Assembly (NCBI GenBank): GCA_003246455.1
Contig: QKAF01000032.1
Location: forward strand, 1 to 58,762
DNA length: 58,762 nucleotides
DNA from: Bacteroidota bacterium
Lineage (GTDB): Bacteria > Bacteroidota > Ignavibacteria > SZUA-365
Reading direction: 5' to 3'
Position numbers and translations under genes: made by a program. The stretch's first letter is position 1, and the number at the start of each line of letters is the position of its first letter. The notes beneath the pieces are model-generated. The model ran no database searches. It saw only the letters and a list, made by a program, of their open reading frames with translations, and had not been told where the DNA came from. Positions 5,330 to 43,431 of this stretch are shown piece after piece.

Positions 5330-6682
5330 ATGAAGTGTTTTACACCGAATATTGCGATGGCTCTTCTGTTGTGGTTGAGTGGCGGACCTCTGATGTTGAC
5401 AGTTACTGCACAGGAGAGGCCGGAAGGCAGCAAGGAAACGTCTGCAGATCGTACATCGATGGCAGGAGGCGTTCAGTGGGACGATGAGGACTCTCCGCCA
5501 TTGCTGTTCCGTGATTCGCGCATCGGCGGCTGGTTTTCACAGGTGCTCGACACTGAACTGCATGTCTACTCTGTCGCGTTCAGCACACCGATGACCGGGC
5601 TTGTCGTCGGGATGCACGGGAAGGTGTATCGCACCGAAGATGCGGGGAGCAGCTGGACTGTGTACCAGGCCCCTACAGAGTACTACATCGCGACCATCGA
5701 ATATGTGACAGACGAGATCTGGATGGCAGCCGGGAAAAACGGGACAATACTCCGCACGACGAACGGTGGTCGAAACTGGGTCCGGCAGGAATCCGGAACC
5801 ACCTGGATTCTGCGCGGAGTGTCCTTCACCGATTCGATAACGGGGACCGTTATAGGCGAGAGAGACATTCTTCGCACGACAGATGGAGGGGTGCATTGGA
5901 CGTCGCAGGATGGCGGAATACCGACCCAGTTCTACGAAGTGGTATACACTGATGCGGTCACCGGGATTATCGTCGGGAAGGATGGGATTATTCTGCGAAC
6001 GACGAATGCCGGGACGGTGTGGCAGTCTATTGATCCTGTTACCACGGTCGATCTGAACGATGTGTATTTTATCGATAAACAGACAGGCGTTGCCGTCGGT
6101 GATAAAGGTATCATCCTTCGCACAGTGGATGGAGGAAGGACGTGGACACACGTCTCATCTCCCACAGAGGTGAATCTGGAAGGGGTGATGTTTCCCACCG
6201 CACAGATCGGTACCATCGTCGGGATGAACGGGTGCATCCTGCGAAGCACCGACGGCGGGCAGTCCTGGATTGAGCAGCTCAGCAACTCACAGTCATATCT
6301 TTGGGGAGTATTTTTTACTGATCCCTACACTGGTGCTGCCGTCGGATCGGAAGGCACGGTGCTTCGAACCACGACCGGGGGAGTGACCTGGATCGACACG
6401 CCGGCTCCGGCTCCCCAGCGCGTGGCACTCCATCAGAACTATCCGAATCCTTTTAATCCTGCTACAGCAATACGCTTCACGCTGGCACAGTCGCAGTACG
6501 TTTCGCTGGTGGTGATGGATCAATACGGCCGTGAAGTCCGGTATCTGCTGGATGGAGAGTTCAGAGAGGCTGGCTCCCACCGGCTGCAGTTCGATGCCAC
6601 AGGTTTGCCTTCGGGTGTATACTTCTACAGCCTGATCGCAGGCGGGCAGCGGTTAACAAGGAGGTTGGTTTTGCTGCGGTAG
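5330..6682 (+). CDS. Secreted YCF48-like beta-propeller protein with type IX sorting domain
   Basis: After a signal peptide (residues 1-27) come seven blades with the YCF48/photosystem-II-assembly-like signature, such as GKNGTILRTTNGGRNW, GDKGIILRTVDGGRTW and GMNGCILRSTDGGQSW. Together they form a beta-propeller. The C-terminus (about residues 370-450) is a sorting domain: NYPNPFNPATAIRF, MDQYGREVRYL, LPSGVYFYSL. In heterotrophs this blade family is not photosynthetic and usually lies in secreted proteins of unknown role. The start is well set by GGAGGAGG just upstream of the ATG. A terminator-like hairpin lies 83 bases past the stop. Confidence 0.87.
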   Translation: MKCFTPNIAMALLLWLSGGPLMLTVTAQERPEGSKETSADRTSMAGGVQWDDEDSPPLLFRDSRIGGWFSQVLDTELHVYSVAFSTPMTGLVVGMHGKVYRTEDAGSSWTVYQAPTEYYIATIEYVTDEIWMAAGKNGTILRTTNGGRNWVRQESGTTWILRGVSFTDSITGTVIGERDILRTTDGGVHWTSQDGGIPTQFYEVVYTDAVTGIIVGKDGIILRTTNAGTVWQSIDPVTTVDLNDVYFIDKQTGVAVGDKGIILRTVDGGRTWTHVSSPTEVNLEGVMFPTAQIGTIVGMNGCILRSTDGGQSWIEQLSNSQSYLWGVFFTDPYTGAAVGSEGTVLRTTTGGVTWIDTPAPAPQRVALHQNYPNPFNPATAIRFTLAQSQYVSLVVMDQYGREVRYLLDGEFREAGSHRLQFDATGLPSGVYFYSLIAGGQRLTRRLVLLR

Positions 6683-26411: not shown

Positions 26412-27833
26412 ATGATTACACGCGCACTCGCTCCTACGCTTCTCGCGGTCCTCCTCTTCCCCTTCGTGCTCGCTGTGCCCGTGGCGGCACAATCGCCCGC
26501 CATGCATCAGCGAATGGCCGGCAGCGCATCCATCGACAACGCATCGTACGAACTGCTGCAGCGGCTGAGTGACGAAGCGGGCGGGAGATGGATCGGTTCG
26601 CCTCAGAACGTGCAGGGAATGGATATTCTGATGGAGGCCCTGCGCGGCATCGGCCTGTCGCCCAGGCAGGAGCGATTCACCGCGCGCGGGTGGGTGCGCA
26701 ATGACGACGAGGTGCGGATGATCGCGCCGTCGGACCGCGTGTTCCGTGCCGTCGCACTCGGGTATGTCGATCAGACGCCGGCCTTCGAAGCGCCGCTCGC
26801 CTGGGCCAACCGCGGGCTGACGGAGGATTTCGACAGCTGTGACGTGTCAGGCCGCATCGCACTCGTCACGCAGGAAAAACTGTCGGGACAGGAAAGTCCG
26901 CTCCGCTCCGAAGTCATCATCCGGGCCGCGGCGGCGGGTGCACGGGCGGTGCTTTTCATCAACGACAAGAAGGCCGGACAGATACTCTGCGGTATGGGCA
27001 ACTTCCATGGTGACCCTGCGGCGGTACCGGCGTTCAGTATCACCTGGACCGAAGGACAGCGGCTGAAGCGGCTGCTGGATCATGCGGTTCCCGTACGCAT
27101 GCGCCTGACGGTGCATTCCCGCTGCGTCGAAGTCGAGAGCGCGAATGTCGTGTGCACCCTTCCCGGGAAAAGCGCAGACAAGATCGTGATCGGCGCCCAT
27201 TTCGATTCATGGGACGTCGGGCAGGGCAGCGTCGACAACGGGATAGGGACCGCCGTGCTCTTCGATGTCGCGCGCATCCTGGCCTCCCTCTCCCCGTCGA
27301 ATGAGCGGACCATCGAGTTCGTCTGGTTCAACGGTGAGGAAATGGGTCTCTGGGGTTCGCGGAAGTACGTGGAGATGCACGCCGACGATCGCATCACGGC
27401 GATGATCAACATGGATATGACCGGGAGTCCGCGCGGATTCGGAGCCATGGGGAACGCGCAGTTTCTCCCCCTCCTCAACGAACTCGTCGACGAATTCCGC
27501 GGCTATGACATGAGCCGCGGGGTGATCAACGGCATATGGACGAACAGCGACCATCAGCCGTTCATGCTTGCGGGTTTCCCGACCGTCACCCCGCTCGGGC
27601 ACCTCGACCGCGAAACGGTCGAAACCTATCACGATTTCGGCGACACCTTTGACCTCGTCAACAAGCGCTATCTCTCCGAGACCGCCGGCGTCGTCTCCAT
27701 CCTCGCCTACGAAATCGCCAACCGGACGACCATTCCCACCATCCGCCGAACACCCGCCGAAACGATGGAGTACCTCCGCGCGGGCAATCTCGAGGAGCGC
27801 CTGAAACGCCAGGGCGAATGGCCGTTCGATTGA
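26412..27833 (+). CDS. M28-family zinc aminopeptidase, exported
   Basis: 473 residues with a signal peptide (residues 1-27, ending PVAAQ). A PA-like insertion at about residues 130-220 (RIALVTQEKLSGQE, ARAVLFINDKKAG) precedes the catalytic domain. M28 metal ligands are visible: IGAHFDSWDVGQGSVDNGIG (His and bridging Asp), WFNGEEMGLWGSRKY (catalytic Glu-Glu), NMDMTG (Asp), and the last His in TVTPLGHLDRE. The enzyme likely trims peptides in the periplasm or outside the cell. The C-terminus lacks a sorting domain. It probably shares an operon with the upstream transporter. Confidence 0.9.
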   Translation: MITRALAPTLLAVLLFPFVLAVPVAAQSPAMHQRMAGSASIDNASYELLQRLSDEAGGRWIGSPQNVQGMDILMEALRGIGLSPRQERFTARGWVRNDDEVRMIAPSDRVFRAVALGYVDQTPAFEAPLAWANRGLTEDFDSCDVSGRIALVTQEKLSGQESPLRSEVIIRAAAAGARAVLFINDKKAGQILCGMGNFHGDPAAVPAFSITWTEGQRLKRLLDHAVPVRMRLTVHSRCVEVESANVVCTLPGKSADKIVIGAHFDSWDVGQGSVDNGIGTAVLFDVARILASLSPSNERTIEFVWFNGEEMGLWGSRKYVEMHADDRITAMINMDMTGSPRGFGAMGNAQFLPLLNELVDEFRGYDMSRGVINGIWTNSDHQPFMLAGFPTVTPLGHLDRETVETYHDFGDTFDLVNKRYLSETAGVVSILAYEIANRTTIPTIRRTPAETMEYLRAGNLEERLKRQGEWPFD

Positions 27834-27940
27834 CCGGGTCCCCCGCCGGGGAAAACTCAATTACCGGATTACTGTGCATGGCCATGTGATTCGGCGTTTA
27901 CGTGTCATCGCGTATGGCCGGGCCGTTGGAAATCCCGGGG

Positions 27941-28176
27941 TTCGGGGCATGGCCGCGTTGCGGGACATCCCCGGGGTTCGGGGCATGGCCGCGTTGCGGG
28001 ACATCCCCGCGGTTCGGGGCATGGCCGCGCTGCGGGACATCCCCGGGGTTCGGGGCATGGCCGGGCTGCGGGACATCCCCGGGGTTCGGGGCATGGCCGC
28101 GTTGCGGGACATCCCCGGGGTTCGGGGCATGGCCGCGTTGCGGGACATCCCCGGGGTTCGGGGCATGGCCGGGCCG
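27941..28176. repeat. 36-bp tandem satellite, about 6.5 copies
   Basis: The element TTCGGGGCATGGCC starts at 27941, 27977, 28013, 28049, 28085, 28121 and 28157, an exact period of 36. Most units contain the mini-hairpin CCGC-GTT-GCGG. A few variants change it (CCGCGCTGCGG, CCGGGCTGCGG). The last unit runs directly into the left REP, which has the same GTT loop. Confidence 0.95.
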
Positions 28177-28192
28177 TTGGCCCGCCCCTACG
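28169..28192 (-). repeat. Left REP element (GTAG plus hairpin)
   Basis: On the minus strand: GTAG, GGG, then CGGGCC-AAC-GGCCCG. A GTAG at the 5' foot of an imperfect hairpin is the signature of REPs mobilised by REP-associated transposases. Confidence 0.7.
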
Positions 28193-28222
28193 TCAGTGCA
28201 TGCTCCTTGCTCCGGTGGTGAC

Positions 28223-28247
28223 GCGTCCGGGCCGTTGGCCCGAACGC
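28223..28247. repeat. REP-like hairpin
   Basis: GCGT-C-CGGGCC-GTT-GGCCCG-A-ACGC forms an 11-bp stem with one mismatch. It shares its core with the left REP but lacks the GTAG foot. Confidence 0.6.
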
Positions 28248-28350
28248 AGCATGGGGATCGCGGGGTCAGGTCGGCGATTGTTCCTTGCCGTCGATTTTTT
28301 ATTTTCGTAGCGTGCATTACACGTCGATTCATTTTGCATAGGGAGTGCGA

Positions 28351-28836
28351 ATGATCTTCCGAAATACATCGCGACGCCTGACGAGATATGATTACCGCAA
28401 TCCAGGGGCGTATTTCGTCACCGTGAAAACCAATGGGAACCGTGATCTCTTCGGGTACATCCATGAGGGGATCATCTTTCTCAATGGAAGGGGCCGCGTC
28501 GTTCTGGATGAATGGAAACGCATCACGAATGTACGCGACAATGTCCGTTGCGCGGAATTCGTCATCATGCCTGATCACATTCATGGTGTCATCGAGATTC
28601 TCCCCTATCGTCTCATCCAACCCCTTGAACCTGATTTCCGACTTCTCGGGGGCTCACTCGGTGCGATCATGGGACAATTCAAATCCCGCGTCACAAAACG
28701 AATCCGAAATGAATCGGGGAATCCACATTTTACCGTATGGCAAACGAATTATTATGATCACATCATCCGATCATCGAACGATCGTGAACGTGTTCGCCGT
28801 TACATCCAACAAAACCCCATGCGGTTTCACCCCTGA
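28351..28836 (+). CDS. REP-associated tyrosine transposase (RAYT, Y1/IS200-like)
   Basis: 161 residues. It begins with RRLTRYDYRNPGAYFVTV, typical of REP-associated transposases. The HUH motif is MPDHIHGVIEI, where the two His bind the metal, and the catalytic Tyr lies in QTNYYDHIIRS. R-x-x-I-x-x-NP near the end (RYIQQNPMRF) is also typical. These enzymes nick single-stranded REP DNA at GTAG-hairpins and spread REPs; unlike IS200/605 transposases they are single-copy domesticated genes. A GTG at 28345 is an alternative start. The gene is flanked by REPs in inverted orientation, so its likely substrates are adjacent. Confidence 0.93.
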   Translation: MIFRNTSRRLTRYDYRNPGAYFVTVKTNGNRDLFGYIHEGIIFLNGRGRVVLDEWKRITNVRDNVRCAEFVIMPDHIHGVIEILPYRLIQPLEPDFRLLGGSLGAIMGQFKSRVTKRIRNESGNPHFTVWQTNYYDHIIRSSNDRERVRRYIQQNPMRFHP

Positions 28837-28845
28837 ACCTACCCC

Positions 28846-28870
28846 GCACGCGTCCCATCGGGACGTGTGC
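28846..28870. repeat. Hairpin just downstream of the RAYT gene
   Basis: GCACGCGTCCC and GGGACGTGTGC pair over 11 positions with one mismatch around ATC. There is no U-tract, so it is a REP-like hairpin or a weak terminator. Confidence 0.6.
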
Positions 28871-28900
28871 GCCTCCCCTCAATTATATATGCCCCAATTG

Positions 28901-28926
28901 CGTAGGGCCGATCCAATGGATCGGCC
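28901..28926 (+). repeat. Right REP element (GTAG plus hairpin)
   Basis: GTAG (28902-28905) followed by GGCCGATCC-AAT-GGATCGGCC, a perfect 9-bp hairpin. It is inverted relative to the left REP, with both hairpins pointing away from the transposase gene. Confidence 0.75.
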
Positions 28927-28927
28927 A

Positions 28928-29068
28928 CACCATCACGATCATCCACACGTTTCCGGATCATCCACACGTTTCCGGATCATCCACACGTTTCCGGATCATC
29001 CACACGTTTCCGGATCATCCGCACGTTTCCGGATCCGCCGCACCATCACGATCATCCGCACGTTTCCG
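28928..29068. repeat. 19-bp tandem satellite
   Basis: ATCCACACGTTTCCGGATC repeats at 28941, 28960, 28979, 28998 and 29017 (the last with one change, A to G). CACCATCACGATC precedes the array and recurs at 29041, followed by a partial sixth unit. Confidence 0.95.
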
Positions 29069-29149: not shown

Positions 29150-29178
29150 GCAGCCGTGCTGCGCATGTGCTACGATAT

Positions 29179-29240
29179 TTTCGAAGGTGCTACGGAGTTC
29201 AGGAAGGTGCTTCGATGTTCTTCGAAGGTGCTACGGTGTT
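29179..29240. repeat. Degenerate 20-21-bp tandem repeats
   Basis: Three imperfect units of the form CGAAGGTGCTACGG(A/T)GTT lie between the hairpin and the stop of the response-regulator gene. Confidence 0.6.
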
Positions 29241-29244
29241 GTTC

Positions 29245-29619
29245 CTAACCCAGTTTCTTTTTCAGAATGGAGAGGAGTGTTTTGGGGTGGATCGGCTTCT
29301 GGAAGACGCCGTCCAGACCAAGCGCTTTGTAGTCGGTGTTGTCATCGAGGCTGTCACCGACGGAACTGAGCATGAAGAGGGGGATCGTATTGCCGAGGAC
29401 CTTCATCTCCTTGGCGAAATTGATTCCCGAATCCACTTCTTCCATCATAAGGTCGACAAGCAGAAAGTCAGGCGTAGTGTCCTTGTACTTGCGGATACCT
29501 TCCTCGGCACTGTGCGCTTCGACCATGTCGTAACCGTTCGCTTCAAGGATCATGCGCACGGCGTCGAGCATGTCCTGATCGTCGTCGAGGTACAGGATCA
29601 CGTGTTTACCGTCGTTCAT
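29245..29619 (-). CDS. Single-domain response regulator (CheY-like)
   Basis: 124 residues, a receiver domain only. The acidic pair is in ILYLDDDQDML, the phosphoacceptor Asp in FLLVDLMMEE, the switch Ser in LFMLSSVGDS, and the conserved Lys in GVFQKPIHP. No DNA-binding or other output domain follows. It lies 56 bases after the hydrogenase protease gene on the same strand and may be the last gene of that operon. Its partner kinase is not adjacent; the nearest is the CHASE kinase at 38744. A link to hydrogen metabolism is suggested only by position. Confidence 0.88.
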   Translation of the reverse strand: MNDGKHVILYLDDDQDMLDAVRMILEANGYDMVEAHSAEEGIRKYKDTTPDFLLVDLMMEEVDSGINFAKEMKVLGNTIPLFMLSSVGDSLDDNTDYKALGLDGVFQKPIHPKTLLSILKKKLG

Positions 29620-35046: not shown

Positions 35047-37002
35047 TCAGGGTTCGAGCGTGATCGATTTTGCGTACGGCCCGCAGTCGGGTCCGATGGC
35101 GAAGGAAAATTCACGGGTGCGGAAGCCGGTTTTTTCGATATCGACACCGTATTCGCCCTTGCACAGTCCGTCAAAGACGGCCACGCCCTGGGCGTTGGTC
35201 TGCTGCGTTGCCAGCACCGCGCCGTTGCGCCAGAGCTTCACGGTGGCCCCGTCGACCGCCGCGCTGTTCGGATCCGTCACCGTCACGGTGAGCACGCCCG
35301 AGCAGCAGATTTCCGTCAGCGTGGCTTCGCGTGTCACCGGTTCGCAGCTGCTGTTGATGGCAAAGGAACCGTCGGTGGCATTGTAGCCTTCCTTGCTGAC
35401 GATATACACGTACTCGCCGGCGCAGAGACCGTCGACGACGATCTGGCCGTTGGCGTTCGTGCGCGGATCGGAGATCGCCGTCCCGTTTTTCTTGATCAGA
35501 ACCTTGGCATTCTCAACCGGGTTGCCGTTCCCGTCGCGCACGACGAGGGTGAACACACCGCTGCAGCACACGCTGTTGGTCTGCATCGTCGCTTCACGGG
35601 TTACCGGTTCGCAGCTGCTGTTGATGGCGAAGGAACCCTCGATCACGGCGTAGCCTTCCTTCGTGGCGCGGTAGCTGTACTCACCCTGGCAGAGGCCGTC
35701 GATGATGATGCGGCCGTCGCCGTTCGTCACGGGATCCTCGACCACCGTCGCGCCCTTCTTGACCACGACTTTCACGCCCTGGATGGGATTCCCGTTCGCG
35801 TCGCGGATGACGAGGGTGAACACCCCGCTGCAGCAGACACTGCTGCCGGTGAGCGTGGCTTCGCGGGTGACCGGATCGCAGTTTTCGGTGATGGCGAACA
35901 TGCCTTCAACGACGTTGTAGCCTTCCTTCGAAATGCGGTAGTTGTACTCACCGCGGCAGAGTCCGTCGACGATGATCGTTCCGGCGGCATTGGTCACCGG
36001 GTCTTCGATCACCTTGCTTCCCTTGCGCACGAGCACCTTGGCGCCCGGCACGGGATTCCCGTTGGCGTCGCGCACGACGAGGGTGAACACGCCGCTGCAG
36101 CAGCCGAGATTCTCGACCACGACATTCTTGGTGTAGGGATCGCAGTTTTCATTGATGGCGAATCCGAATTCGCGGTCGGTAACGCCGGTTTTCATGACGT
36201 CGACCCCGTATTCCCCGCGGCACAGATCGGTAAACACCGCGATGCCCGCCGTATCCGTGAACGCCTGGTGGAGAATCGCGCCGTTCTTCCAGACGCGTAC
36301 CTGAGCGCCGGCGACCGAAAGGCCGTTCTCATCCTTGACGATCACGGTCAGGACGCCGTCGCAGCATCCGCTGCTCGCGTTCTGCAGAACCGCGGTCATC
36401 TCGACAGGATCGCAGGTGGGGTTGATCGCGAACACGGCTTCGTAGACACGGTAGCCGTCCACGGCGATGCGAACCGAATATTCGCCCGCGCACAGACTGG
36501 AAACGGTGACCTTCCCGTCCTCGTCGGTTCGGGGATCTGCGATGATCTGTCCCCCGCGCTTGATGACGACGGCCTTGTTCACGAGGACCTCGTTATTCGC
36601 GTTTTTCAGCGTCAGAACGAGGACGCCGCTGCAGCAGGAATCGGCGGGAGTCATCTGCACGCTCATGTTCTGCAGCGCCCCTTCGTCCGATTTCGGATCG
36701 AGCCCGTTGTAGAGCACGGGCGCAAATCCTGCCGCCTCGACGATGATGTCGATTTTCTCCGCCGGCAGTCCTTTCAGGAGAAACGCGCCTTCGGAGTTCG
36801 TGACCGTTCTCGCAATCTCCGCCCCGTCTTCATGCCGCTGCGCGATGACGCTGGCATCCGAGAGCGCCGTTCCTGTCCCCGCCTTATGCACCGTTCCGGA
36901 CACGGAAAAGGTCTCCGGTGCCGTCGTACTGTCATCCGAACAGGAAAGCGCCACAAACAGGGCAAGTACCAGGAACAGGAGACGTGGAAACATTTGCTTC
37001 AT
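35047..37002 (-). CDS. Lipoprotein with six cysteine-patterned CnaB/PEGA-like modules
   Basis: 651 residues. The signal ends at a lipobox (FVALSC, Cys 21). A carboxypeptidase-regulatory-like domain follows (FSVSGTVHKAGTGTALSDA). Then come six modules of 82-90 residues. Each starts CC(S/D)GV(L/F)T(L/V), has D-x-N-G-x-x-V-x-x-A-x-V, then LC-x-GEY, and ends in a C-(D/E)P. So each module has four conserved cysteines. Modules 3 to 5 are the most alike, which suggests recent duplication. Such beta-sandwich modules often stiffen surface stalks; the role here is unknown. ATG 37002 is chosen to start the signal peptide; the frame extends upstream to 37140 without need. Confidence 0.85.
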   Translation of the reverse strand: MKQMFPRLLFLVLALFVALSCSDDSTTAPETFSVSGTVHKAGTGTALSDASVIAQRHEDGAEIARTVTNSEGAFLLKGLPAEKIDIIVEAAGFAPVLYNGLDPKSDEGALQNMSVQMTPADSCCSGVLVLTLKNANNEVLVNKAVVIKRGGQIIADPRTDEDGKVTVSSLCAGEYSVRIAVDGYRVYEAVFAINPTCDPVEMTAVLQNASSGCCDGVLTVIVKDENGLSVAGAQVRVWKNGAILHQAFTDTAGIAVFTDLCRGEYGVDVMKTGVTDREFGFAINENCDPYTKNVVVENLGCCSGVFTLVVRDANGNPVPGAKVLVRKGSKVIEDPVTNAAGTIIVDGLCRGEYNYRISKEGYNVVEGMFAITENCDPVTREATLTGSSVCCSGVFTLVIRDANGNPIQGVKVVVKKGATVVEDPVTNGDGRIIIDGLCQGEYSYRATKEGYAVIEGSFAINSSCEPVTREATMQTNSVCCSGVFTLVVRDGNGNPVENAKVLIKKNGTAISDPRTNANGQIVVDGLCAGEYVYIVSKEGYNATDGSFAINSSCEPVTREATLTEICCSGVLTVTVTDPNSAAVDGATVKLWRNGAVLATQQTNAQGVAVFDGLCKGEYGVDIEKTGFRTREFSFAIGPDCGPYAKSITLEP

Positions 37003-43257: not shown

Positions 43258-43320
43258 TATTTGTGCCTTCCGAATCGCGAGACACCTTCGCCGGCATACC
43301 CCGGCATGGGTGAATTCCGT

Positions 43321-43368
43321 CACGGCCGCAGCCCGTCACGGCCGCAGCCCGTCACGGCCGCAGCCCGT
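43321..43368. repeat. Three copies of a 16-bp tandem repeat
   Basis: CACGGCCGCAGCCCGT is repeated at 43321, 43337 and 43353 without change. Confidence 0.9.
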
Positions 43369-43431
43369 CACGCGCGTTTTCCTTCGCGGGCCGCGTGCCG
43401 AGGCAGCGCGGAGGACCAGGACGATTCCCGT

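Follow-up and report, generated by a model that had tools for sequence, protein, structure and literature searches.

A RAYT gene lies between two inverted GTAG hairpins

The window (the whole 58,762-nt stretch of DNA that we analysed, from a Bacteroidota genome) contains an intact RAYT (TnpA-REP) gene with a REP hairpin on each side, and the unit as a whole lies between genes for an M28-type peptidase and a response regulator (Table 1). The response-regulator gene precedes genes that, judged from their sequences, encode a hydrogenase maturation protease and a NiFe-hydrogenase subunit. The RAYT gene and both inverted GTAG hairpins are situated where the original prediction had put them, while the third hairpin and the tandem arrays that run outward after both REPs were absent from it. 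Both flanking REPs present GTAG towards the RAYT gene and the 3' side of the hairpin outward. The right REP differs clearly from shuffled sequences in its fold (z -3.8). The left stem consists of six inner pairs, the G.G mismatch and two outer pairs, and its fold is weak relative to shuffles (z only -1.6), in GC-rich surroundings. No Rfam family matches at the locus.

Table 1. Positions of genes, hairpins and arrays at the RAYT locus
Feature	Position	Strand	Description and evidence
M28-type peptidase gene	26412-27833	+	function named from sequence
Copy of left REP 3' half	27914-27929	-	exact 16-nt copy (CCAACGGCCCGGCCAT) at far end of left array; 0.04 expected within 2 mismatches
Left tandem array	27934-28171	-	36-bp unit, 6.6 copies; overlaps 3' foot of left REP
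Left REP	28167-28191	-	GTAG (28191-28188), then GGGCGGGCC-AAC-GGCCCGGCC (28187-28167) with one G.G mismatch; covariance model 46.2 bits
Inner hairpin (degenerate REP)	28224-28246	-	same apex type, without GTAG; 16.1 bits, z -3.5
RAYT (TnpA-REP) gene	28351-28836	+	161 aa, intact; Pfam, NCBIfam, PDB profile, AlphaFold model
Right REP	28902-28926	+	GTAG (28902-28905), then GGCCGATCC-AAT-GGATCGGCC (28906-28926), perfect 9-bp stem; covariance model 42.5 bits
Right tandem array	28918-29068	+	19/57-bp unit; begins inside 3' arm of right REP
Response-regulator gene	29245-29619	-	function named from sequence

The RAYT is a class-2 TnpA-REP, with an HUH motif formed by H76 and H78 and a Y---NP motif. 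It matches Y1_Tnp in Pfam (1.4e-6) and REP_Tyr_transpos (NF047646) in NCBIfam, the latter with an E value of 2.4e-18 but a score of 66.4 bits, which is below the curated cut-off of 80 bits. A search of the PDB with the single RAYT sequence found no match, and a profile was thus needed; the profile built from ten relatives matched the E. coli TnpA-REP structure 4er8 (E 2.2e-8). Similarly, 4er8 is the top PDB fold match of the AlphaFold model (pLDDT 84), with modest TM-scores near 0.5 and ∼19% identity over the fold alignment.

Mapped by spacing, residues W94, Q95, R104, Y115 and N119 of the E. coli protein correspond to W130, Q131, R140, Y151 and N155 of the window RAYT. Based on this correspondence, W130, Q131 and R140 are predicted to read GTAG, Y151 to be the catalytic residue and N155 to be a metal ligand. 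All five are invariant, as are H76, H78 and P156. The call of an HUH transposase in the original prediction was correct, but its choice of the tyrosine in NYYDHIIR as the catalytic residue was not: that tyrosine is not invariant and belongs to the GTAG-reading motif WQ...DHIIR, and we therefore place catalysis at the invariant Y151 in RRYIQQNP. According to PMC6006769, W94, Q95 and R104 are among the residues that interact with GTAG, the role of W94 being called unclear, and Y---NP is the signature of class-2 TnpA-REP proteins.

By homology, the protein would fold as an HUH Y1 nuclease and bind the GTAG-tagged strand of REP hairpins when that strand is single-stranded, for instance during replication; Y151 would then cut and rejoin DNA beside REPs, such that the short REPs spread and the gene does not. 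The gene is single-copy in the window's genome and carries Y---NP, whereas IS200/IS605 insertion sequences are recognised by several near-identical mobile copies and a class-1 Y---Q motif. A second Y1 protein of this genome, encoded on another contig (C154), was set aside because no GTAG hairpins of the family lie beside its gene.

The flanking hairpins belong to a dispersed REP family

The hairpins had been expected to recur in the genome, and this expectation holds for the family but not for the exact stems. Each exact flanking GTAG hairpin stem occurs once, and no dispersed REP with an identical stem was found in the whole genome. However, the family pattern has 20 matches in the 4.1-Mb genome, compared to 0 for the reversed control, and the covariance model has 30 matches at E < 2e-4, some of which are close together and at least one pair of which (contigs C14 and C94) may be one element assembled twice. 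The family, with about 30 members in the window's genome, has the consensus GTAG-GGNCGRNCC-NNN-GGNYCGNCC-A. Outside GTAG and the hairpin foot conservation drops, except for a short 5' edge and, in the window's genome, a GCAGGA-type 3' neighbourhood. No firm cleavage site emerges from the flanks: the REP flanks of the window's genome have no conserved C|T, and the only signals are a weak upstream GCTGGAT in part of the relative G005 and CA at the 3' foot.

The stems of the family covary freely at three positions. Among 48 distinct REPs from four genomes the covariation score is 0.303, compared to 0.064 (sd 0.014) for shuffled and ≤0.049 for slid pairings, and 97.5% of cells are paired; since these REPs were picked with a stem model, we take the score as support and not as an independent discovery. 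Beside RAYT genes GTAG hairpins are specifically and several-fold enriched, occurring on both sides in 15 of 105 loci drawn from many phyla, while each of 11 control tetramers does so in 0–2. The accompanying statement that RAYT substrates occur mostly in proteobacteria is too narrow, as relatives are found in Bacteroidota, Spirochaetota, Cyanobacteriota, Chloroflexota and other phyla.

If the two flanking hairpins were unrelated structures (terminators, for example) that carry GTAG by chance, one might expect each exact GTAG stem to be unique in the genome and the left hairpin to be weak against shuffles, as is the case. We nevertheless reject this explanation as extremely improbable, given the family counts relative to the control, the fit to the covariance model, the covariation and the specificity of GTAG beside RAYTs.

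GGACGAGCC, the most frequent stem among the dispersed REPs, is not that of either flanking REP. The RAYT might be limited to the two REPs that flank it, with the dispersed GGACGAGCC family spread by another RAYT that is lost or unassembled. No dispersed copy in the genome has exactly the flanking stems, and in two relatives (G003 and G010) the family is present but a clade RAYT is not, both of which fit this alternative. We consider it unlikely, however, since flanking and dispersed REPs have in common GTAG, CG pairs, a CC/GG apex, a 3-nt loop and a CCA tail, and since the family is present in all three genomes with a clade RAYT. It appears instead that one enzyme serves hairpins with different stems, as we infer from the presence of a single clade RAYT here, from the freely covarying stems and from the behaviour published for a group-3 enzyme, to which GTAG and the loop matter more than the sequence of the stem (PMC8266576).

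The Y1 HUH protein with its Y---NP motif and W/Q/R GTAG readers, the inverted GTAG hairpins and the dispersed family all support the initial interpretation of the locus. It is very probably a REPtron, in which a RAYT gene, a domesticated transposase, is located between inverted GTAG hairpins with family relatives dispersed in the genome.

The RAYT clade is confined to genomes that carry the REP family

In a tree of 94 RAYTs, the window RAYT groups with those of two other genomes, G005 and G009 (support 100/99). The window's genome has one clade RAYT. All three of these genomes carry the REP family, and the clade RAYT occurs only in family-holding genomes; in most other relatives searched, the family is absent or represented by weak single matches. 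The family without a detected clade RAYT is found in G010 and in the sister genome G003, in which the left REP recurs letter for letter (L170). The G003 contigs break at both sides of the site, inside arrays, and the RAYT may thus simply be unassembled there.

The site between the peptidase and response-regulator genes is empty in G001, G005 and G010, where the response regulator comes immediately after the peptidase, and the clade RAYT of G005 is located elsewhere, away from this site. In G009 the RAYT follows the peptidase but in the opposite orientation, and the same REPs form the end of a second contig, which carries the response-regulator side; the reversal could result from recombination between inverted REPs or from a separate insertion. 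The clade RAYT is found at the M28/response-regulator site in two genera. At two loci considered together (L271, in G009, and L279), three different hairpin types alternate around the reversed RAYT, and their order is identical on its two sides.

The inverted ends, the empty site in three genomes, and the position in G005 and orientation in G009 would be explained if the whole unit were a mobile transposon terminated by the REPs. We reject this as a highly improbable explanation, because there is one copy per genome, because the clade RAYT occupies the same site in two genera and because the REPs have spread without the gene.

Tandem arrays extend from the 3' side of the REPs

The arrays at the locus reflect a bias seen across the family. 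Of 68 REP loci in four genomes, 22 have an array that begins inside the 3' side of the REP or no more than 14 nt from it, and 6 have one that ends equally near the 5' side; both counts include the 7-bp GCAGGA arrays common in the window's genome, and by chance ∼0.3% of the bases in a 400-kb sample are as close as this to the start of an array. Arrays overlap the 3' arm at nine of these loci and the 5' arm at none. Stray half hairpins are similarly distributed. Thirteen loci have 3' halves downstream of the REP, a single 3' half lies upstream, and 5' halves are absent. All these counts are approximate, as they depend on search thresholds, on the clustering of REPs and on the choice of genomes. 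Where arrays are clear, the start of their unit coincides with the hairpin loop or is only a few bases from it, and the reiterated sequence is often the loop, the 3' arm and a short tail; the 5' half is hardly ever reiterated. Many weak matches are due to chance, and counts of unit boundaries with short arms are therefore noisy.

In G003, a 22-bp array borders the same site to the left, and to its right is a 19-bp array (CAACGGATCGCCCACGACG, 11.4 copies). Each contains a REP-like 3' arm, but their units are unlike those of the window, which indicates independent formation or renewal of the arrays. Beside the RAYTs of a spirochaete MAG and of Pinibacter there are similar 3'-half arrays; Pinibacter aurantiacus (L073) is in culture and carries half-REP arrays. 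Outside the family the 3' bias is weaker (counts of 11 versus 5, with at least two of the five being the same palindromes from the other strand).

Other repeats were also noted. Counter to the general bias, one locus (L054, ∼5490-5660) has a true 5'-side array, in which GTAGTAGAGACGCACAATAGTGCACCCC is repeated, at the 3' end of a RAYT gene. Arrays of 7-bp GCAGGAA/GCAGGAG units adjoin many dispersed REPs on either side (L136, L140, L144, L146, L157 and other loci of the window's genome). Within the window, an imperfect 20-bp array (GTGCTACGATGTTCTTCGAAG) at 29167-29244 precedes the response-regulator gene, with a comparable GGTGCT-CG series at this position in G003; a 267-bp tandem duplication at 35518-36103 is possibly inside a gene, and a perfect 16-bp repeat, CCGTCACGGCCGCAGC, is present in 3.5 copies at 43317-43372.

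Two sources of the 3' arrays appear about as likely as each other. The first, which has close to an even chance, is independent of the RAYT and consists of ordinary slippage during replication, or of hairpin processing, where hairpins are stable: the units start at or near the loop, as hairpin-driven slippage or loop cleavage could produce, and G003 has arrays with no clade RAYT assembled there. If this were the case, however, an untagged hairpin should give 5'-half arrays equally, while in the family 13 loci have stray downstream 3' halves and none has a stray 5' half. Moreover, of the 128 non-GTAG hairpins in a 400-kb sample, only 2 have a half copy close by, yet the same strict test finds one near 0 of the 14 GTAG hairpins there. 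We prefer, tentatively and at somewhat less than even confidence, the explanation that the RAYT cuts 3' of the hairpin in a strand-specific way and thereby initiates repeated rounds of local synthesis, from which the arrays result. Cleavage at this position would leave a 3'-OH able to prime synthesis, a use that is discussed in PMC8266576, and arrays would then grow from the 3' side of the REP, reiterating the loop, the 3' arm and a short tail.

An extension of RAYT cutting, which we regard as rather doubtful, is that REP hairpins act as one-way minisatellite seeds, with strand-specific RAYT cutting leading to repeated outward copying of the loop, 3' arm and tail. If true, REPtrons in several phyla would build and renew arrays both where they themselves end and beside dispersed REPs. 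The directional scar, namely 3'-half arrays and no 5'-half arrays in the family, is a sequence fingerprint of events at REP hairpins and bears on how RAYTs spread REPs inside genomes; directional arrays would, in addition, be one origin of private bacterial minisatellites.

Comparison with known REPtrons

The REPtron is an already known kind of element. With published REPtrons that have class-2 TnpA-REP/RAYT proteins (Nunvar 2010, PMC2817692; PMC6006769), the window shares an HUH protein with Y---NP, a gene between inverted REPs, one gene per genome, mostly solo dispersed REPs and W/Q/R GTAG readers. It differs from them in its low copy number (about 30), in flanking stems unlike the dispersed majority and in the 3'-side arrays that edge the REPs. 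Dispersed REPs identical to the flanking stems, which are typical of known REPtrons but not strictly defining, do not occur in the window's system.

The group-3 REPtron of Stenotrophomonas maltophilia, as described in PMC8266576, likewise has a near-perfect stem of 8-9 bp with a 3-nt loop directly after GTAG, but its loop is GCT, while those of the family are AAC, AAT and AGC. The E. coli TnpA-REP is the best match in both profile and fold, but the REPs of E. coli have bulged stems and differ in this from those of the window. One-sided half-REP arrays were not found in the freely accessible journal literature searched, although tandem whole REPs are mentioned in PMC3733652. That paper also deals with CGTC REPs, for which there is apparently no dedicated transposase. 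As described there, BIMEs and tandem REP clusters resemble the arrays in reiterating REP sequence together with flanking DNA, but BIMEs reiterate whole REPs, whereas the family reiterates mainly the 3' half and 3' flank, in one direction. The locus joins the known REPtrons as an example of a single RAYT that apparently serves hairpins differing in stem sequence.
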